Source: Iocasia fonsfrigidae (GTDB taxonomy: Bacteria > Bacillota > Halanaerobiia > Halanaerobiales > DTU029). Taken from it: DNA of 64,000 nucleotides. Shown here in pieces: positions 48,026 to 57,634 of this stretch (positions are counted from its first letter, which is position 1; the number at the start of each line of letters is the position of its first letter). The position numbers and the translations under genes are program-made. Location of the stretch: contig NZ_CP046640.1 in assembly GCF_017751145.1 (NCBI RefSeq), positions 2,956,137-3,020,136 of the forward strand. Direction: 5' to 3'. The notes under the pieces are model-generated. The model was given only the letters and a program-made list of their open reading frames with translations, searched no databases and was not told where the DNA came from.

Positions 48026-50629
48026 TTAAGAACCATAAGCCTGACGGTAGACCTCTTTTAGCTCCGTTACTAGCGGCATTCTGGGATTAGTACCAGTACA
48101 CTGGTCATTAAAGGCAATGTCTGCCATATCATCCAGTTCCTTTTCAAACTCTTTCTTTTCCACACCAGCCTCTGCTAAACTTAAGGGCACCTTTACTTCT
48201 TTCATCAAGTCTTTTACAGCTTTGATCAGGCTATCAACTCCCTTTTCACTGGTATCTGCGGGCAGCTCCAACATTTCTGCAATCTCAGCATACCTCTGGT
48301 CAGCCTTGGGATATTCATACTGTGGAAAAGCCGCCAGTTTACTTGGTTTACCAGCATTATATTTAATAACATGAGGAAGTAGAATAGCATTTGCCCTGCC
48401 GTGTGGTATATGGAACTTACCACCAAGAATATGTGCCATACTATGATTAATCCCCAGAAAGGCATTAGTAAAGGCCATACCGGCAAGGCAGGAAGCATTA
48501 TGCATTTTCTCTCTGGCCTCTTTATCACTACCATCTTTATATGCCCTTGGTAAATATTTAAAGACTAACTTAATAGCCTTCTCTGCCAGAGCATCTGTAT
48601 AATCAGAAGCCATCACAGACACATAAGCTTCAATAGCATGTGTTAAAACATCCAGACCTGTATCAGCAGTTACAGAGGCTGGTACAGTCATAACCAGTTC
48701 CGGATCAATAACAGCTATATCTGGAGTAAGTTCATAATCTGCCAATGGATATTTTATATTCTTCTTTTTATCTGTTATTACTGAAAAAGCGGTAACCTCT
48801 GACCCTGTACCGGAAGTGGTAGGAACAGCTACAAAAGTCGCTCTCCTCCCCAGGGCTGGAAACTTAAAGGCCCTCTTTCTGATATCCATAAACTTAAGTT
48901 TTAAATCATCAAATTTAATATCCGGGTGTTCATAAAACAACCACATTCCTTTAGCAGCATCCATTGCTGAACCACCACCAAGGGCAATAATAAGGTCAGG
49001 TTCAACATCTTCCATAGCCTGACAGCCACGCTGCACTGTTTCGACAGATGGATCAGGCTCCACATCAGAAAAAACCTCCATTGCTATATCTGCTTTATCT
49101 AGCTGATAGGCCACCTTATCAACAAAACCAAGGTCGACCATGGTCTGGTCTGTGATAATAAAGGCAGTCTTACCTTTTAATTTGCTTAAGTATTGTAAAG
49201 AACCATATTCAAAATATAGTTTTGGTGGAACCTTAAACCACTTCATCCTTTCCTTACGAATAGTTACCTTCTTAATATTCAATAGGTTCTTAACACTAAC
49301 ATTATCAGTTGTTGAGTTTCTACCCATTGAACCACAGCCTAAAGTTAGTGAAGGGTTATTAGTATTATAGATATTTCCAATAGCACCATGTGAAGAAGGT
49401 GAATTAACCAGCAGCCTCCCTGTTCTGATACGTTCACTAAATTTATTAATAACCTCTCTATCATTAGAGTGAATAACCGCTGAATGACCTAATCCTCCAA
49501 ATTCTGTCATCTCTTCACAACGTTTAATACCCTCCTGATAGTTTTTTACCACATAACAGGCCAGAATAGGACTTAACTTCTCACGGGACAAAGGATAATC
49601 AGGACCAACACCCTCTAATTCAGCAATCAGTATCTTGGTATCCTCTGGCACCTTAATCCCAGCCATCCTGGCAATTTTGGCAGCAGATTGACCAACAACA
49701 GCAGGACTCATAGCATTTTTTTCTTGATTTATAGCTATCCTGGATAAACTCTTTATTTCATTTTTATTAAGGAAGTAACAATTATTCTCTTTCATCAGGT
49801 CTTTGACCTCATCAGCAACATCCTGATCTATAATAATTGCCTGTTCTGAGGCACAGATAGTGCCGTTATCAAAGGTTTTGCTTAAAATAAGGTCAGCTAC
49901 TGCCTGTTTAAGGTTAGCACTTTTTTCAATATAACAGGGAACATTACCAGGACCAACACCAAGGGCAGGTTTACCACTGGAATAAGCTGATTTAACCATA
50001 CCAGACCCACCTGTAGCCAGTATCAGATGAATATCCTGGTGTTTCATCAAATAATTAGTAGCCTCCAAGGAAGGTTTTTCTATCCAGAGAATGCAATCCT
50101 CCGGTGCACCTGCTGCAACAGCTGCCTCTTTCATTACCCTGGCTGCTTCTATACTACATTTTAAGGCAGTCGGATGGAAACTAAAGATAATAGGGTTTCT
50201 TGTTTTAGCACAGATTAATGACTTAAACATAGTAGTAGAAGTAGGGTTGGTTACTGGTGTAAGACCAGCAATAACCCCAATTGGCTCAGCTACCTCCTGA
50301 TAATTTTCAGCTGGATTTTCTGATATAATTCCAACTGTTTTTTCATATTTAATATCATGATAGACATATTCAGATGAAAAAAGATTTTTGGTAATCTTAT
50401 CTTCATAAACCCCCATACCAGTTTCCTGATGAGCCATCCTGGCCAGTTCAATGTGCTTATCTACCCCTGCCAGGGCCATTCTTTTAGTTATCTCATTGAT
50501 TTTATCCTGACTCAGTTTTTTATATTCTTCACCCGCCCTGACCGCCTTCCTGACTAATCTATCAACCATTTCCTCAACTGTTTCATTTTCCTTAAGAGTA
50601 GCAATCCTTTTTGCAGTACTAGTAGTCAT
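48026..50629 (-). CDS. adhE: AdhE: bifunctional acetaldehyde / alcohol dehydrogenase
   Basis: Reduces acetyl-CoA to ethanol with two NADH. 867 residues: N-terminal CoA-acylating aldehyde dehydrogenase (catalytic C259 in DNGTICASEQAI, GVGPGNVPCYIE) and C-terminal iron alcohol dehydrogenase (ALGGGSAMDAAKGMWLFYEH, VPTTSGTGSEVT, metal site DTGLDVLTHAIEAYV and FLGINHSMAHILGGKFHIPH). The ATG has a GGAGGG site. It lies 33 bases after rex, the last gene of the Rex-controlled operon, so that high NADH would turn on both hydrogenase and ethanol genes. Confidence 0.97.
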   Translation of the reverse strand: MTTSTAKRIATLKENETVEEMVDRLVRKAVRAGEEYKKLSQDKINEITKRMALAGVDKHIELARMAHQETGMGVYEDKITKNLFSSEYVYHDIKYEKTVGIISENPAENYQEVAEPIGVIAGLTPVTNPTSTTMFKSLICAKTRNPIIFSFHPTALKCSIEAARVMKEAAVAAGAPEDCILWIEKPSLEATNYLMKHQDIHLILATGGSGMVKSAYSSGKPALGVGPGNVPCYIEKSANLKQAVADLILSKTFDNGTICASEQAIIIDQDVADEVKDLMKENNCYFLNKNEIKSLSRIAINQEKNAMSPAVVGQSAAKIARMAGIKVPEDTKILIAELEGVGPDYPLSREKLSPILACYVVKNYQEGIKRCEEMTEFGGLGHSAVIHSNDREVINKFSERIRTGRLLVNSPSSHGAIGNIYNTNNPSLTLGCGSMGRNSTTDNVSVKNLLNIKKVTIRKERMKWFKVPPKLYFEYGSLQYLSKLKGKTAFIITDQTMVDLGFVDKVAYQLDKADIAMEVFSDVEPDPSVETVQRGCQAMEDVEPDLIIALGGGSAMDAAKGMWLFYEHPDIKFDDLKLKFMDIRKRAFKFPALGRRATFVAVPTTSGTGSEVTAFSVITDKKKNIKYPLADYELTPDIAVIDPELVMTVPASVTADTGLDVLTHAIEAYVSVMASDYTDALAEKAIKLVFKYLPRAYKDGSDKEAREKMHNASCLAGMAFTNAFLGINHSMAHILGGKFHIPHGRANAILLPHVIKYNAGKPSKLAAFPQYEYPKADQRYAEIAEMLELPADTSEKGVDSLIKAVKDLMKEVKVPLSLAEAGVEKKEFEKELDDMADIAFNDQCTGTNPRMPLVTELKEVYRQAYGS

Positions 50630-50662: not shown

Positions 50663-51313
50663 TTATGATTTTGACCCAAATTTTTCATCAATCATATATG
50701 ACAGTGTCAATAGACTCTCACTAATGTGCACATTTTCAACCAGTACCTTTCCACTGTAGTTTAAACTAACTGGAGCAAAATTCCAGATACCCCTTATCCC
50801 CCCCCTTACAAAGATATCTGCAACATCTACAGCACTCTCTGGTGGTGTAGTAATAATACCGATATCTATCCTATTATTTGTCAAAAAGTCAGCCAGCAGA
50901 CTGATATCCTGAACAAGAAGACCAGCAACCTCCTGCCCAATAAGCTCTGGATTTACATCAAATATTCCTTTAATATAAAACCCCCTTCTCTTAAAATTAG
51001 GATAATTAATAATTGCCTTACCAAGGTTTCCAGCCCCGGCAAGCACCATATCCATTTGATTATCTAAACCAAGTATCTTAGCAATTGCCTCCTTTAAATT
51101 AGCAACTCTATAGCCATACCCCCGTTGACCAAAATTACCAAACTGACTTAGATCCTGTCTTATCTGAGAAGCAGTAACACCCAATTTTTCCGCTAATTCA
51201 CTTGAGGATATTCTCTCAACCCCTTTTGAATGTAATGTAGTAAGAAAGCGGTAATAGACAGGCAGTCTTTTAATAACACTTACTGCTATTGGCTTCTCCT
51301 TCTTTTTAGACAT
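50663..51313 (-). CDS. rex: Rex: redox-sensing transcriptional repressor
   Basis: Senses the NADH/NAD+ ratio; NADH releases it from DNA. 216 residues: winged helix (LPVYYRFLTTLHSKGVERIS, ASQIRQDLSQFGNFGQRGYG), Rossmann fold (VLAGAGNLGKAIINYPNF, IGIITTPPESAVDVADIFV) and the C-terminal swapped helix. The gene overlaps the hydrogenase stop (GAGATGAATGTCTAA), so it is translated with it. The only perfect Rex palindrome in the window is in front of this same operon, so Rex should control itself. Confidence 0.97.
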   Translation of the reverse strand: MSKKKEKPIAVSVIKRLPVYYRFLTTLHSKGVERISSSELAEKLGVTASQIRQDLSQFGNFGQRGYGYRVANLKEAIAKILGLDNQMDMVLAGAGNLGKAIINYPNFKRRGFYIKGIFDVNPELIGQEVAGLLVQDISLLADFLTNNRIDIGIITTPPESAVDVADIFVRGGIRGIWNFAPVSLNYSGKVLVENVHISESLLTLSYMIDEKFGSKS

Positions 51314-52778
51314 TCATCTCCACCTCTCTGCTCATCTTCTTTAAAAGTCCCTTGGCCTTAGCCGGACCTGTCATGGTACCAGGCCCACCTATACAACCAT
51401 CCTGACAGCCCATTCCTTCCATAAAATCTATTTTAAATACCCCTCTGGAAATTTGTTTTAATAATTTATCACAATCCCTTATTCCAGCAGCAGTTTTAAC
51501 CTGTAACCCATCTCTTTCCATACTATTTAAAATAGCCTTACTAACCCCTCCAGCAGCACAGAAATTCAAGGCATCAATAGAGGGATTTTCAAGATTATTA
51601 TCTCTTCTGGACTTTTCACCACCCAGTTTAGCCAGATTAATACCTGCCCCTACTAAAACAGCAGCAATCTCTTCATAGGTAAGCACTCCATCTATTAGAC
51701 CATTACTTTCTCTTATCGCTTCACCCTTTTTCGCCAGACAGGGACCAATAAATATATTTTTAATATCATCATCACCCGACTTCTTAAGCAGTCTAGCAGT
51801 TTTAAGCATAGGTGACTCAGTAGTAGAGATACCAGCGGTTAATTCTGGGTAATGTTTATTTATTAAATTTTTAAAAGAAGGACAGCAAGAATTAAAGGTA
51901 ACACCTTTATTAAATTCTATATTTTCCAGCAATTCCCTGCTTTCTTCTCTAATTACCTCATCAGCACCAGCTGCTACCATAACAACCCTGGTAAACCCAA
52001 GCTTTTTTAAACCCTCTTTAAGTACATCCCAGTCTACTCCTGGTCCAAATTGCCCAATAAATGATGGGGCTACCAGAGCAACTGTTTCTGATTGACTATG
52101 CCTTAACATTTTAATGGCATTTACTATTTCAGACCTGTATGAAATAGCACCAAAGGGACAGGCAACAATACAGGCACCACACTCAACACAATTGCCTTCT
52201 TCAATAGCAGCACTGGCCTTATCTCCGGATACTATTGCATCAACAGCACAGGCCCTACTACAGGGACGTTCTATCTCTACTATTGCACCATAGGAACAGG
52301 CCTTAGCACATAGGCCACATTCAATACACTTTTCTCTGATTATAAAAGCCCTGTTATCAACTATTTTGATTGCATCCCGGGGACAGCTATTAACACAATT
52401 ATGGGCTACACAGTTACGACAGGCATTAGTAACAAACATCTTATCTATTGAACAATGGTCACAGGCCTCCTCAATCAAAGTAATATATGGTTTATCACTT
52501 CTTGCTACTGGTTGATCAAGTACATTCCTGGCCAATTCCTCAAGCCTCTTCTTACTATCTTCTGCTGTAATATCTATCCCTAAAGCAAGTTTAATTCTTT
52601 CTTGAAGAATCGCCTGTTCTTTATATTGACAACAACGGTAACTTGTTAAGCCTTCATCTGTTAATTTCTTTGGTAAGCCCTCAACATCTTCAACTAATCT
52701 ATTATTAAATATTAAAGCAGCAACCTCTGTAAGGACCCTCCGGCGTATCTTGGTTACTTCTGAAATGACTTCAGCCAT
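51306..52778 (-). CDS. [FeFe] hydrogenase, non-canonical (group C/D-like)
   Basis: 490 residues. The N-terminal helical region (1-95) includes RCCQYKEQAI. A ferredoxin region follows with four-Cys motifs (CDHCSIDKMFVTNACRNCVA, EKCIECGLCAKACSYGAI, GNCVECGACIVACPFGAI), then the H-cluster domain. H-cluster motifs: L1 FNSCCPSF (C298, C299), L2 GPCLAKKGE, L3 EGMGCQDGCIGGPG. The four cluster cysteines are present, but L1 is NSCCP rather than TSCCP and L2 lacks the usual Met (GPC for MPC), as in sensory or Hfs-type enzymes rather than classic HydA. It may be catalytic with the small [2Fe-2S] protein encoded upstream, or have a regulatory role. Confidence 0.88.
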   Translation of the reverse strand: MAEVISEVTKIRRRVLTEVAALIFNNRLVEDVEGLPKKLTDEGLTSYRCCQYKEQAILQERIKLALGIDITAEDSKKRLEELARNVLDQPVARSDKPYITLIEEACDHCSIDKMFVTNACRNCVAHNCVNSCPRDAIKIVDNRAFIIREKCIECGLCAKACSYGAIVEIERPCSRACAVDAIVSGDKASAAIEEGNCVECGACIVACPFGAISYRSEIVNAIKMLRHSQSETVALVAPSFIGQFGPGVDWDVLKEGLKKLGFTRVVMVAAGADEVIREESRELLENIEFNKGVTFNSCCPSFKNLINKHYPELTAGISTTESPMLKTARLLKKSGDDDIKNIFIGPCLAKKGEAIRESNGLIDGVLTYEEIAAVLVGAGINLAKLGGEKSRRDNNLENPSIDALNFCAAGGVSKAILNSMERDGLQVKTAAGIRDCDKLLKQISRGVFKIDFMEGMGCQDGCIGGPGTMTGPAKAKGLLKKMSREVEMNV

Positions 52779-52798: not shown

Positions 52799-53038
52799 TT
52801 ATATTAAACTTTTTTTAATCTCCTCAACAACAGTTTCAGGTGTAACCTTATCCAACAGTACACCGGCTATTCGCACATTTGGACCCTTACCACACCTATC
52901 CATACACTGTACATACCTTAAGTCAATTCTTTCCTTTATATTGTCTGCCAGTCTATCCAGACATTCCATAATCAAATTACTTCCCATCAAGTGACAGGAG
53001 GTACCAACACAAACCTCTACACTTATCTTTTCACTCAT
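52799..53038 (-). CDS. Thioredoxin-like [2Fe-2S] protein (NuoE/HydC-like), 79 aa
   Basis: Stand-alone version of the [2Fe-2S] domain of NuoE. Ligand pattern C-x4-C (VCVGTSCHLMGS) and C-x3-C (YVQCMDRCGKGPNVRI). It is about half the length of full HydC/NuoE, lacking the N-terminal helices. Encoded 13 bases after the phosphatase and 20 bases before the hydrogenase, so it is probably an electron carrier or subunit for it. Confidence 0.88.
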   Translation of the reverse strand: MSEKISVEVCVGTSCHLMGSNLIMECLDRLADNIKERIDLRYVQCMDRCGKGPNVRIAGVLLDKVTPETVVEEIKKSLI

Positions 53039-53050
53039 CTACTTAACCCC

Positions 53051-54217
53051 CTAATATCTCTCTATATTTACTTCTTTTCCATGTTTACGAAGCAGATTAA
53101 CTAATTTACCGATTATTACTGGTCTAGGCTTTAACTGGAGTGACTTCATCAGCTCTTCATGTGCTGGATTTACAGCTGACCCCATCAGAAAAGTAATCTC
53201 ATCGGCCTTTAAAAGGGATTTACTTAGAATACTTGCCCCGTCTTTTATACCATCAAATTCATTCTTATTATCATTAAAATTATCTTCAGACAATTGTTTG
53301 ATTTTATCCACTGTCTTATTTAGGGTTAATATCCCTTCTGTTACCAGGTCTATACCTTCAATGTCAGCTACTGGTGGTACACTAGGGTCTATATAATCCA
53401 GTGATGTTTCTATCTCAAACCCAAGTTCCCGGGCAACCATATTACCAGTAGCCCCACCACAAACTATTTTTTGGGCATTGGTATAATCAAGAAATTTAGC
53501 TACTAGCTGACTATCGTATCTCTTTTTCTGAGGGGGACCTGTCAGAACAACGGCAGACCTTGGTCTCCTTGATTTAATAACAAGAGCAGTAGAATCATCC
53601 CCTGCTTTTCCCATATAACAGGCCTCTGTCAGGCCAATAATCTTCTTAGCAACCTTATCTGCTGCTTGCTCTGTCAGATTGCGTTTGAAAATATTATCAA
53701 GTAAACGATCGCGTCCTAGTCCCAGTTCAAAGAGTCCTCCTACCCCTGCATTAATAACCCCATCACTGATCAGAAATAACAGGTCATTTAATTCGAGTTG
53801 AAAAAAACTCTCATATACCTCTTTACCTGCTATATTCCTCTTTATCTTCTTGATAGAGACAATATCATTATCCCTGATTAACATAAGTGAAGGGTTATCA
53901 TATTCTATCAAATGAGCACTACCATCTATTTTCACTTTCAGAATTGATAATGTTGAATAAGCAATCCCTCTTACCTTACAAATCGGGAGTGTATCAGCAA
54001 TTGTTGTAAATACTTCTTCCAGCCTAATATTCTTCTCCAGCATCCTGGAAGCTATCTGAGTAGAAAGGATTGATAAGATACTGGCTTTAATACCACTACC
54101 CAGTCCATCAGATAATATAACAGTAGTTGAATCCTTTTCTTCGATTATTTTTGTAGTATCACCACACACCTCTTCCCCTTTTTTGCAAAGACTGGCAATG
54201 CCGATGTCAACTTTCAT
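53051..54217 (-). CDS. SpoIIE/PP2C-type serine phosphatase of the hydrogenase operon
   Basis: 388 residues from the ATG at 54217. The N-terminal 220 residues are a PP2C-like (SpoIIE) fold: TTVILSDGLGSGIKASILS with metal-binding Asp, LLFLISDGVINAGVGG and GKAGDDSTALVIKSRRP. The C-terminal 170 residues (VVLTGPPQKKRYDSQLVAKF, KIVCGGATGNMVARELG) are conserved in hydrogenase-linked phosphatases but have no assigned role that I can state. It overlaps the sensory hydrogenase gene. In other fermenters, sensory hydrogenase genes stand beside such phosphatases, suggesting H2-dependent control of protein phosphorylation; the target is unknown. Confidence 0.88.
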   Translation of the reverse strand: MKVDIGIASLCKKGEEVCGDTTKIIEEKDSTTVILSDGLGSGIKASILSILSTQIASRMLEKNIRLEEVFTTIADTLPICKVRGIAYSTLSILKVKIDGSAHLIEYDNPSLMLIRDNDIVSIKKIKRNIAGKEVYESFFQLELNDLLFLISDGVINAGVGGLFELGLGRDRLLDNIFKRNLTEQAADKVAKKIIGLTEACYMGKAGDDSTALVIKSRRPRSAVVLTGPPQKKRYDSQLVAKFLDYTNAQKIVCGGATGNMVARELGFEIETSLDYIDPSVPPVADIEGIDLVTEGILTLNKTVDKIKQLSEDNFNDNKNEFDGIKDGASILSKSLLKADEITFLMGSAVNPAHEELMKSLQLKPRPVIIGKLVNLLRKHGKEVNIERY

Positions 54218-55925
54218 CTTCACCTGTATTCGCCTCTTTTCTATTCATTATATCAATTAATTCAAGAAGTGTTGCTTTAGTCTCTGCTGTACTTTCACCC
54301 AGTAAACCAGCAATCTGCTGGGCAACTTTCATCTGTTCACGTATTACCCTTTTGGCCTTATTAAGGGCTGACAGCTTCATATCATCAATCTCTGCCTTGC
54401 GTTTTTCTTCTGCTGTTACATCAGTAATTAATCCTATTACAACCCCATATTTTTCCAGCGGATAAATACTTTCCCTGGTTATCAAACTATACTGTTCATA
54501 TTCCTTATATTTATCAGTAATTATCTCCTGATTATCCCTGACTTCAATATAATCTGCCGGATCAACAAAGGAAGATAAATATTTACCTTTAGGCTTAATA
54601 CCTTTTCTATTAAACATTTTCTCAGCTGTTGGATTAAATTCTTGAATAATCATATCTTCACTGACGATAATAATGCCATTTAAAGAACTGTCAACAACTG
54701 CATGTGATAGTGATTCTGCTTTTTCCCGCATATATGGGATACACATCTCCACTTCAGCCCTCCCATTATATACCGCTACAGCCTTTTCCCGACAACTGGA
54801 ATAACCACAACCACCGCAATTACTTTCATCCTCTGGGGTAAACTTACCTGTCAAGGCAAGAATCTCCCTTATCTCTTCTTCACTAGGCAATTTATCCTTC
54901 TGCTGATAATGTCGATATTTCCTTTGATAATTTCTAGGAGAAATATCATTTTCCTCATTAAATCGGGGTGTATCTTCTATAAACTCACTTAATCTCATCT
55001 TGCGATGGGCAACACCATAATCATTAGCCATAGCCGGCCCACCAATACAGCCCCCCTTACAACCAAGGGCCTCAACAAAACGGGGACTTATCAATCCCTC
55101 TTCCATATCTTTAAAGACCTCTATAGCTTCCTCTACACCCGAAACGGTAATTACATCACCCAGGAGTGAGCCCTTTATTCCTGCTACTTCAAGTATCCCC
55201 CTGTGTAGTGGATAGGCCCTCGCCCTTGAAGAAATACAATCAGGATAGATATCTGCCAGACTATCTGCTTCAATACCTTTGTCCTTAAAAAACTCTATTA
55301 TTTCTTCAAAAGTCAAAACAGCATCTAAAGGATTATCTTCATCCCAGCTGAGCTCCTCCTTTTTACTAAAACAGGGGCCGATAAAGATAATTTTATAATC
55401 CTCACCCAATTTTTCGCTTAATAAACGAGCATGAATCATCATCGGTGACATAACAGGGGACAATTTATCTATTAGACTATGAAAATTTTTTTCTATCAAA
55501 CTTACAATAGTAGGACAGCAACTTGATATTAACGAATCATCACCTTCATCATGACAGACATCATAATATTCCCTGCTAACTATCTCCGCAGCCAGAGCCG
55601 TCTCTTCAATTACAGCTATCCCCAGTTCTTTAAGACCAGCTACTAATTTCCAGGGGGTTTGATAAGTTGTAGCTGCCAGATATGAAGGGGCTAAACTCAC
55701 TGCTATTTTTTCTCCATCAAGCAGATACTTATCCAGAATATCTATAGCAGATACTGTCGTCTTAGCATTCTGTGGACATATCTCTATACATCTACCACAT
55801 AAAATACATCTTTCTTCTATTACCCAGGCCTGATCATCATTTAAACCAATTGCCTTTAGGGGACAGTGTCTTATACATTTGTAACAATCCTTACATTTAG
55901 CTTCACTGGTTAAAATAATAGCCAT
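54207..55925 (-). CDS. Sensory-type [FeFe] hydrogenase with PAS domain (HydS-like)
   Basis: 572 residues. Two N-terminal [4Fe-4S] motifs (CKDCYKCIRHCPLKAI, RCILCGRCIEICPQNAK); H-cluster domain with L1 ISSCCPTI (C136, C137), L2 GPCFSKKEE and L3 EALGCKGGCIGGPA; an extra Fe-S domain CGGCGYSSCREKAVAVYNGR with EVEMCIP; then a PAS domain (about 405-520, VVDSSLNGIIIVSEDMIIQE) and a C-terminal helix rich in charged residues. GPC replaces MPC. This architecture matches group C putative H2 sensors. It precedes and overlaps the phosphatase gene, a likely output partner. Confidence 0.9.
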   Translation of the reverse strand: MAIILTSEAKCKDCYKCIRHCPLKAIGLNDDQAWVIEERCILCGRCIEICPQNAKTTVSAIDILDKYLLDGEKIAVSLAPSYLAATTYQTPWKLVAGLKELGIAVIEETALAAEIVSREYYDVCHDEGDDSLISSCCPTIVSLIEKNFHSLIDKLSPVMSPMMIHARLLSEKLGEDYKIIFIGPCFSKKEELSWDEDNPLDAVLTFEEIIEFFKDKGIEADSLADIYPDCISSRARAYPLHRGILEVAGIKGSLLGDVITVSGVEEAIEVFKDMEEGLISPRFVEALGCKGGCIGGPAMANDYGVAHRKMRLSEFIEDTPRFNEENDISPRNYQRKYRHYQQKDKLPSEEEIREILALTGKFTPEDESNCGGCGYSSCREKAVAVYNGRAEVEMCIPYMREKAESLSHAVVDSSLNGIIIVSEDMIIQEFNPTAEKMFNRKGIKPKGKYLSSFVDPADYIEVRDNQEIITDKYKEYEQYSLITRESIYPLEKYGVVIGLITDVTAEEKRKAEIDDMKLSALNKAKRVIREQMKVAQQIAGLLGESTAETKATLLELIDIMNRKEANTGEDES

Positions 55926-55938
55926 ATATCTTGCCTCC

Positions 55939-56184
55939 CTATATATCTAAACGTTTTTCTAATTCATCGATTATATTATCTTTTGTGATATTTGTTACAA
56001 TCTCTTCATTAAACTTGACTACAACCCCTTCGGTACAATGACCCTGACAGAAACAGGCCTTTAGTTTTATCTCTATCTTTGCTTCATTTTCAGCAATATA
56101 GCCCTGTAATATATTGATAATCCCTCTTGAACCCTTAACATGACAGCCACTTCCAATACAAACAGTAATATTAATTCTCAGCAC
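55939..56184 (-). CDS. Thioredoxin-like [2Fe-2S] protein (NuoE/HydC-like), 81 aa
   Basis: First gene of the operon. C-x4-C (TVCIGSGCHVKGSRG) and C-x3-C (LKACFCQGHCTEGVVVKF) form the cluster site. A paralogue of the 79-residue protein encoded further down. The GTG start overlaps its ribosome site (AGGGGGTG), so translation may really begin a few codons later at a rare codon. Confidence 0.85.
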   Translation of the reverse strand: MLRINITVCIGSGCHVKGSRGIINILQGYIAENEAKIEIKLKACFCQGHCTEGVVVKFNEEIVTNITKDNIIDELEKRLDI

Positions 56185-56207
56185 CCCCTACTGACAGGTC
56201 ATTTTCT

Positions 56208-56227
56208 TTTGTTAAATATTTAACAAA
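56208..56227. promoter_or_regulatory. Rex operator, 20-bp perfect palindrome
   Basis: TTTGTTAAATATTTAACAAA contains the consensus Rex site TTGTTAA-n4-TTAACAA with no mismatch. It lies in the leader of the hydrogenase-rex-adhE operon, 24 bases before the first start codon and about 45 bases after the expected transcription start. Confidence 0.92.
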
Positions 56228-56279
56228 GAAGAACAAAAAAAATAACTGGTCTTTGTTATATAATTCACATTTTAATTAT

Positions 56280-56307
56280 ATTATAGCATATATCTACTCT
56301 ATGTCAA
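56280..56307 (-). promoter_or_regulatory. Sigma-A promoter of the hydrogenase-rex-adhE operon
   Basis: Minus-strand TTGACA (56302-56307), 16-bp spacer, TATAAT (56280-56285): consensus hexamers, the strongest promoter in the window. Confidence 0.85.
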
Positions 56308-56324
56308 GACAGTTCATAGATCTT

Positions 56325-56342
56325 TTGTTAGGAATTTAACTT
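56325..56342. promoter_or_regulatory. Possible second Rex site upstream of the promoter
   Basis: TTGTTAGGAATTTAACTT matches the Rex consensus at 13 of 18 positions and lies 17 bases upstream of the -35 box. With the perfect site at 56208-56227 it would bracket the promoter, their centres about 116 bp apart. Confidence 0.4.
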
Positions 56343-56350
56343 ATATTATT

Positions 56351-56368
56351 AAAAAGGATTCACCTTTT
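56351..56368 (-). terminator. Weak terminator at the end of the DUF389 gene
   Basis: On the minus strand AAAAGG - TGAAT - CCTTTTTAATA overlaps the gene's stop codon. A short stem with a modest T-run. Confidence 0.4.
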
Positions 56369-57590
56369 ATGTTTTAATTTCTTTAATTGGTATAATTTTA
56401 AAATTAATACTATATTCATTGTTCAATTTATCACTTATTTCCTTTTTAATATCATTAAGAAAATCTGTACTAATCGATTCATCGGCATATAGATAGGCAT
56501 TTATTAATTTACCCTGAATTTCTATATCTTCTATTCGATAGCTCCAATCCATCACAAGCCTTTCTTTTATTACTGACTTTATTATATCTTTTGGTTTTTC
56601 AATATAAAATTGATGTACAGTAAGTATACCTAATGGTACAGAAAGCAAAATTACTGAAATAACAAAGAATACCATACTCTTCTTGACAATCTTCTGGGCT
56701 TTAACTTCATACCACATCTGAGGTCTCACCCCTTTAAAATAAAAAACTATCAGGGTAGCCAGTAATAAAGAAAGATAGTTACCAGCCAGTAATAGTGAAG
56801 CACCAATAATCATAGTAGTATAACCAAAAGAAAGACCAATGCCTATTGTACTCATCACTGGTAACAGGGCAGCTGCCACCATTACACCGACCAGACCAGA
56901 CCCTGGCTGCCCCCGCTTAACAAGGGAATAAGCACCTGCTGCACCTGCTGCCATAGCTATAAATAAATCAGCCAGTGTTGGATACATCCTGATTCTCAAT
57001 GAACTTGTAATATCAACATTTGGTATAAAAAGCCCAAAGATTGCCCCTACTACCACTGCCAATACAACTGCCAGTATTTCAGCAGCAATACCTTTTCTGA
57101 TTAACTTATTATCTCCTAAAACAATCCCAATCGTAATACCCAGTATTGGCCCCAATACTGGAGCAATAACCATTCCCCCAACAATAACAGCTACATTATC
57201 CAGTATTAAACCAAGACTGGTAATAATTGAAGAAAATATAACCAGGAAAACATATTCACTATTAATACCTGACTTTTCCTGGGCAAAGGTTATTAATGAC
57301 TCCCGGCTGGCATGGAAATTTGCTTTCCTAACCTTTTTCCTGTCTCTAGGAATTACAGTATCAGGTGTAAAGATTATTAAACTTCTTTCCTTATCCCCTT
57401 TAAAGTCAAATCTGCTCATCAAATTATCCAGGAGTATATCAGCATCACCATAGAGCAGATTTATAATTAAAAGATCACCAGTTTCTGATTTTATTAACTT
57501 ATAATCTTGTATATCCACACCAAGAGTATTGAGGAACTTAACAGCCTCCTTACCCTCCCCCGGTCGAAAAACCGCATGAACAATCTGCAT
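56367..57590 (-). CDS. DUF389 integral membrane protein
   Basis: 407 residues from the ATG at 57590 (MQIVHAVFRPGEGKEAVKF), preceded by GGGGGG; the upstream TTG at 57626 lacks a site. The N-terminal 110 residues are a soluble alpha/beta domain; about six membrane helices follow (SSIITSLGLILDNVAVIVGG, MVIAPVLGPILGITIGIVLG, AAGAAGAYSLVKRGQPGSGL), and a soluble C-terminal tail. The family (TIGR00341-type) is widespread and of unknown function. It is monocistronic. Confidence 0.88.
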   Translation of the reverse strand: MQIVHAVFRPGEGKEAVKFLNTLGVDIQDYKLIKSETGDLLIINLLYGDADILLDNLMSRFDFKGDKERSLIIFTPDTVIPRDRKKVRKANFHASRESLITFAQEKSGINSEYVFLVIFSSIITSLGLILDNVAVIVGGMVIAPVLGPILGITIGIVLGDNKLIRKGIAAEILAVVLAVVVGAIFGLFIPNVDITSSLRIRMYPTLADLFIAMAAGAAGAYSLVKRGQPGSGLVGVMVAAALLPVMSTIGIGLSFGYTTMIIGASLLLAGNYLSLLLATLIVFYFKGVRPQMWYEVKAQKIVKKSMVFFVISVILLSVPLGILTVHQFYIEKPKDIIKSVIKERLVMDWSYRIEDIEIQGKLINAYLYADESISTDFLNDIKKEISDKLNNEYSINFKIIPIKEIKT

Positions 57591-57596
57591 AAAAAT

Positions 57597-57634
57597 CCCC
57601 CCTTTGTAGCTACTAGTTTTCAACAAAGAAGGGG
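57597..57634 (-). promoter_or_regulatory. Leader hairpin that would mask the DUF389 ribosome site
   Basis: On the minus strand CCCC-TT-CTTTG pairs with CAAAG-GGGG, nine base pairs with a two-base bulge, and the 3' arm contains the GGGGGG ribosome site seven bases before the ATG. The structure could set a low or conditional translation rate. Confidence 0.35.

Follow-up and report, generated by a model that had tools for sequence, protein, structure and literature searches.

A predicted tandem Rex operator at an hfs-type hydrogenase operon that contains rex and adhE in Iocasia fonsfrigidae

The stretch of Iocasia fonsfrigidae DNA analysed here (64,000 nucleotides, hereafter the window) carries on its minus strand a string of genes in the order nuoE-like, hfsB, hfsC, nuoE-like, hydA, rex and adhE, with rex as the sixth gene (Table 1). 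A nuoE-like gene, a hydrogenase with a PAS domain, a PP2C phosphatase and a hydrogenase follow one another as in hfs-type [FeFe]-hydrogenase operons, relative to which the window has an additional nuoE-like gene ahead of hydA; the PAS match of the hfsB-like protein (20.0 bits) lies under the Pfam cut-off of 22.6. The Rex protein has both parts of the repressor family intact, namely the Put_DNA-bind_N winged helix (PF06971) and the CoA_binding Rossmann domain (PF02629). Intergenic gaps are short or the genes overlap (e.g., 8 bases of overlap between rex and hydA, and 33 bases from rex to adhE), and across the operon stretch the numbers of promoter-like sites (31 vs 29 in the background) and terminator-like sites (6 vs 5.8) were close to background, so the genes are likely co-transcribed.

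Table 1. Genes and leader elements of the hydrogenase operon (window positions)
Feature	Position	Strand	Description
nuoE-like	55939..56184	-	[2Fe-2S] protein, first operon gene; PF01257
hfsB-like	54207..55925	-	[FeFe]-hydrogenase, weak PAS match; PF02906
hfsC-like	53051..54223	-	PP2C (SpoIIE-type) phosphatase; PF07228
second nuoE-like	52799..53038	-	small protein, 79 aa; matches orthologs
hydA	51306..52778	-	[FeFe]-hydrogenase; PF02906
rex	50663..51313	-	216 aa, recognition helix ASQIRQDL; PF06971 + PF02629
adhE	48026..50629	-	bifunctional aldehyde-alcohol dehydrogenase; PF00171 + PF00465
-35	56302..56307	-	TTGACA; motif match
-10	56280..56285	-	TATAAT with TG extension; motif match
O1	56253..56270	.	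Rex box, minus strand ATGTGAATTATATAACAA, 9 nt after -10, about +4 to +21; second-best matrix score
Decayed middle box	56231..56248	.	minus strand CAGTTATTTTTTTTGTTC, between O1 and O2 at 22-bp register, retaining one half-site; inferred from the G031 alignment
O2	56208..56227 (core 56209-56226)	.	perfect Rex palindrome TTTGTTAAATATTTAACAAA, about +48 to +65; best matrix score in the window
Previously proposed second site	56325..56342	.	weak, unconserved, probably not an operator

Two features at the upstream end of the operon are worth recording. The GTG start of the first gene (window 56160-56200) overlaps its own ribosome site, and the ortholog in the related genome G031 has no in-frame ATG, GTG or TTG nearby (L021, near position 1250); both first genes would be consistent with initiation at a rare ATT codon, placed 8-9 nt downstream of the Shine-Dalgarno sequence. 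A DUF389 membrane gene (window 56367-57626) adjoins the hfs operon in the window and in genomes G007 and G031, and is found on the other side in G006.

The minus strand ahead of the first gene has a perfect extended promoter, in which TTGACA and TATAAT are separated by a 16-nt spacer and the latter is preceded by TG, and transcription is predicted to start near position 56273, about 7 nt after the -10 element. The TTGACA / TATAAT promoter had been proposed in a preliminary description of this DNA, together with a mismatch-free Rex palindrome in the leader and a rex gene within the same gene string as the hydrogenase genes, and all three were found, the palindrome being the sole perfect one in the window. 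Using a weight matrix trained solely on sites of orthologous operons in other genomes (i.e., no site of the window's leader was used), this palindrome (O2) ranked first and a further box (O1) second among about 64,000 window positions. The O2 score was reached in none of 2000 leaders of equal length and composition (0/2000), and the O1 score had a p value of at most 0.0005 per leader of matching length and composition. The consensus TTGTTAANNNNTTAACAA matched without mismatch only at O2 within the 64-kb window, and pattern searches, which were used instead of the weight matrix for genome-wide counts of perfect sites, returned four such sites in the whole 3.93-Mb genome and none for the reversed control pattern. 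As an 18-bp inverted repeat, O2 has no mismatch to the consensus, and O1 has two to TTGTKAANNNNTTMACAA; O1, which sits between the -10 element and O2, is a hybrid of one TTGTTA half-site and one TTGTGAA half-site. As expected of a clostridial-type Rex operator, the sites lie in the promoter and leader region of an NADH-related gene and are conserved in orthologs. The palindrome is thus a convincing predicted site for the redox sensor Rex. Separately, a match within the first operon gene (TTGTGATATTTGTTACAA, window 55983-56000) ranked third or fourth by Rex score in the window and shares bases with a promoter-like pair that precedes hfsB; its score may be a mere reflection of the conserved protein sequence VTNITKDNI.

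In nine related genomes, the orthologous operons have a Rex box that adjoins or overlaps the -10 element. The box follows a TTGACA promoter by 9 nt after the -10 element in the window and G006 and by 11 nt in G007; it lies 2-3 nt after the -10 element in G021, G022, G018, G001, G035 and G037, and the first of the boxes in G031 overlaps it. Beyond the order, the first box stands 11 nt after the -10 element in G228, G101, G252 and G307, and 10 nt after it in G393. No recognisable promoter and box were detected at that place in several leaders of one genus (G011, G013-G017 and G019), and the G024 leader had a poor box match with no clear promoter and box. A general alignment of four leaders mispaired promoters and boxes and was excluded from this conservation analysis. 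Linkage of the type hfsB-hfsC-rex or hydA-rex-adhE also occurs in G031, G007, G213, G228, G102, G058, G277, G300 and G307, the cases outside the order having been found solely by a phylum-wide search; among the 80 nearest genome-contig loci, no hfs operon was next to rex, and adhE was about 6 kb away in two.

The number of boxes, too, varied among these leaders. In the matrix scan of the order's leaders, a second good box was found only in the genomes with rex inside the hfs operon (G007, G031 and the window), and the others had one box. The G007 boxes stand 11 and 32 nt after the -10 element, 21 bp apart, and G031 has three boxes spaced by 21 and 21 bp; those of the window stand 9 and 53 nt after the -10 element and are 44 bp apart, compared with 21 bp in the relatives. 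Boxes exactly 21 bp apart also precede the hfs operon in G228, as they do in G007 and G031, and precede adhE in G101 and G252; outside the order, G228 (hfs-rex-adhE) and G101 (adhE-rex) share the positions of 11 and 32 nt after the -10 element. Aligned over their whole length, the arrays of the window and G031 had 46 identities in 65 columns, a score above those of all 2000 shuffled pairs. In this alignment the middle box is reduced to one half-site in the window and each linker is one base longer there; the remnant scored too weakly to count as a functional middle box. More broadly, a blind scan detected paired Rex boxes in 16 of 398 genomes, with no match for the reversed control pattern, and judging by flanking genes, the loci included adhE, Fe-ADH, hyd and hfs operons and an apparent CO-dehydrogenase cluster, along with some unrelated ones.

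Which Rex protein would read these boxes depends on the repertoire of the genome, which encodes three: the operon-linked protein of the QIRQD type and two intact paralogs of the RKD type (G000:C1:185463 and 2929310, both with the helix QVRKD). The recognition helix of the linked Rex, ASQIRQDL, is identical to that of its best PDB match, 3wg9 (E 5e-68), which we take to be the Rex of T. ethanolicus, and both the helix and the tree place the linked protein with clostridial Rex proteins of the RQD type. In the tree, the linked Rex proteins of the window, G007 and G031 share a branch with those of G228, G101 and G057, at a support (93/89) slightly below the tool's threshold for a firm branch, and are separated from the RKD-type proteins (100/100). 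The T. maritima Rex (5zz5) has the helix QIRKD, and in its complex with DNA the Lys of the RKD motif makes contact with an operator G (PMC8836258); this G is taken to be position 5 of TTGTGAA, where TTGTTAA has T. The four perfect boxes of the genome are all of the TTGTTAA (T) type, and in relatives with RKD-type Rex as the only type found, the boxes are mostly of the TTGTGAA (G) type. Family f31 (G102, G058, G277 and G300) combines RQD-type Rex with boxes that contain a G half-site, which shows that the match of helix to operator is not strict. A strict helix-to-operator code across the order was considered and set aside, because f31 departs from it and the numbers of perfect TTGTTAA and TTGTGAA sites are too low to settle the matter.

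The hybrid half-sites of O1 make input from an RKD-type paralog at this box possible. Taken further, O1 and O2 might be read mainly by one of the two paralogs instead of the linked Rex, with no direct autoregulation. Both paralogs are intact, one half-site of O1 is of the TTGTGAA type, and a comparable hybrid box occurs in G006, where rex is not linked. Nonetheless, O2 and all the other perfect sites of the genome are of the TTGTTAA type expected for an RQD-type Rex with the 3wg9 helix, relatives with only RKD-type Rex mostly carry TTGTGAA boxes, and second boxes within the order were found in genomes with a linked rex, which together make this reading unlikely.

A much less probable arrangement is the one put forward in the preliminary description, in which Rex bound at O2 and at a second site (56325-56342) upstream of the -35 element would keep the promoter DNA between them looped. 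Both sequences are present, with 116 bp (about 11 helical turns) between their centres, and the upstream one scores somewhat above a typical leader (p = 0.025-0.033 per leader by weight matrix). It nevertheless has three mismatches at the 14 fixed positions, which is near chance level, given that 23 sites with three mismatches or fewer were observed in the window against 16 expected. It ranked ninth in the window (seventh with a larger training set), with up to eight other positions scoring equal or higher, and it is conserved in none of the homologous leaders scanned; apart from that of the window, none of the ten matrix-scanned leaders had a site upstream of -35. The conserved element is therefore O1 and not the partner proposed earlier. 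O1 is also stronger than that partner and lies between it and O2, and Rex is described as a homodimer (PMC8836258), so that looping would need contact between dimers. Because both strong sites, O1 and O2, lie on the same side of the promoter, downstream of -10, the promoter is not bracketed, and a genuine second operator upstream of -35, as looping by Rex presupposes, was not found. Since the conserved second site adjoins the -10 element, steric hindrance by occupancy of the tandem boxes is a better fit than a loop. The weakest reading, that the self-complementary palindrome of the leader acts in RNA as a hairpin attenuating or stabilising the transcript, can be dismissed, since the leader folds no better than shuffled sequences (z -0.5; 55 of 200 shuffles folded equally well or better), no terminator-like site occurs at the palindrome, and the same box type stands beside or over the -10 element in relatives, which suits a DNA operator.

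With rex in the same operon as a Rex operator, autorepression relieved by NADH is the best reading, and it is strengthened by the recurrence of both linkage and operator across genera and families; this part of the preliminary description stands, and the pair of sites and the loop it named do not. Based on the sites, promoter, gene order, conservation and Rex type read from the DNA, we infer Rex binding and a response to NADH, and consider it very likely that the hfs operon is under NADH-relieved repression through a tandem operator spanning 56209-56270, with autoregulation. When NADH is low, Rex dimers, most likely from the operon's own sixth gene, would occupy O1 and O2. Occupancy of O1, beside the -10 element and over the first transcribed bases, would block promoter opening or escape, and O2, 44 bp further downstream, could strengthen this occupancy or act as a roadblock. 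As NADH rises, Rex-NADH would leave the DNA, so that the hydrogenases and AdhE (i.e., electron disposal) would be made along with more Rex, and the extra Rex would close a negative feedback loop on NADH. The hydrogen and ethanol operon is thus most likely kept off until NADH builds up.

The tree group of linked Rex proteins and their shared tandem boxes suggest that this Rex clade and the tandem operator travel together, and on the few genomes available they seem to do so. We tentatively hypothesize, as a possibility that is more doubtful than not, that the hfs/adhE-linked clade (the window genome, G007, G031, G228 and G101) is inherited together with a phased tandem operator whose boxes stand 11 and 32 nt after -10 and are filled cooperatively by several Rex dimers, giving a steep NADH switch. 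In the window genome the spacing of this operator would have lengthened to 44 bp, and the hybrid O1 could be read by both RQD- and RKD-type Rex, joining two redox sensors at one promoter.

Elsewhere in the genome, the four perfect boxes precede a Zn-ADH gene (two), an Fe-ADH gene (one) and the hfs operon (one), and a box at bcd has one mismatch. The Fe-ADH promoter (L009 4525-4580, G000:C1:2538524-2538579) repeats the layout of the hfs leader, with a first box 4 nt after -10 and a second 38 bp downstream, and a similar Fe-ADH gene in G213 has boxes 20 bp apart. The two perfect boxes at Zn-ADH (L008 4715-4989, G000:C1:1267714-1267988) flank a short open frame (MYHILEKKVLAPQITSFIIDAPEIAAK...) just before the alcohol dehydrogenase gene. 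This frame presumably resembles a truncated NfnA N-terminus, and the layout is suggestive of the capture of a Rex-controlled nfn promoter. Of the two RKD-type Rex genes, one ends a NuoE/F/G-like cluster beside a further HydABC-like set (L081 2281-12479, G000:C1 about 2929280-2939480), where a scan of 19 kb gave no strong Rex box (best score 12.7).

Comparable control is known from other bacteria. In Thermoanaerobacterium saccharolyticum, a Rex site TTGTTAATAAATTAACTA is predicted at -78 of Tsac_1550, upstream of hfsABCD (PMC5886521); operon type, consensus and the location of a site in the leader region are alike, whereas a single site is listed there and adhE (Tsac_0416) has its own sites elsewhere, compared with two sites in the window and rex and adhE after hydA in one string. 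That adhE has two predicted upstream Rex sites, at -150 and -31 (PMC5886521), and so resembles the window in having two boxes at one redox promoter, although they are about 119 bp apart as opposed to 44 bp in the window and 21 bp in its relatives. In Caldicellulosiruptor bescii, gel shifts placed Rex on hydrogenase promoters and on rex itself (PMC6391272), which is the same combination of hydrogenase promoter control and autoregulation; rex is listed as a one-gene unit there and lies inside the hydrogenase operon in the window. The Rex motif of T. ethanolicus, ATTGTTANNNNNNTAACAAT (PMC5886521), belongs to the same Rex type, the recognition helix of 3wg9 being identical to that of the linked Rex. 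Given the T. saccharolyticum predictions and the C. bescii gel shifts, this kind of control is already known. Multiple Rex boxes in a leader have a parallel as well in Bacillus subtilis, where cydABCD, an operon of a different pathway, has several Rex (YdiH) sites downstream of its promoter. In a literature search that was incomplete and did not take in the main Rex regulon study, neither a rex within an hfs operon nor a fixed 11/32-nt tandem geometry was found described.

Overall, the control type itself is well known, and what is unusual is the recurrence of the tandem geometry with one Rex clade. O1 and O2 replace the previously proposed pair as the sites worth testing, and the 11/32-nt geometry makes cooperative NADH sensing by Rex directly testable. 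With RQD- and RKD-type Rex in one genome, it should likewise be simple to test how the recognition helix selects T or G in the operator. For the organism, a fermentative anaerobe, this operator pair should help set the balance between hydrogen and ethanol.
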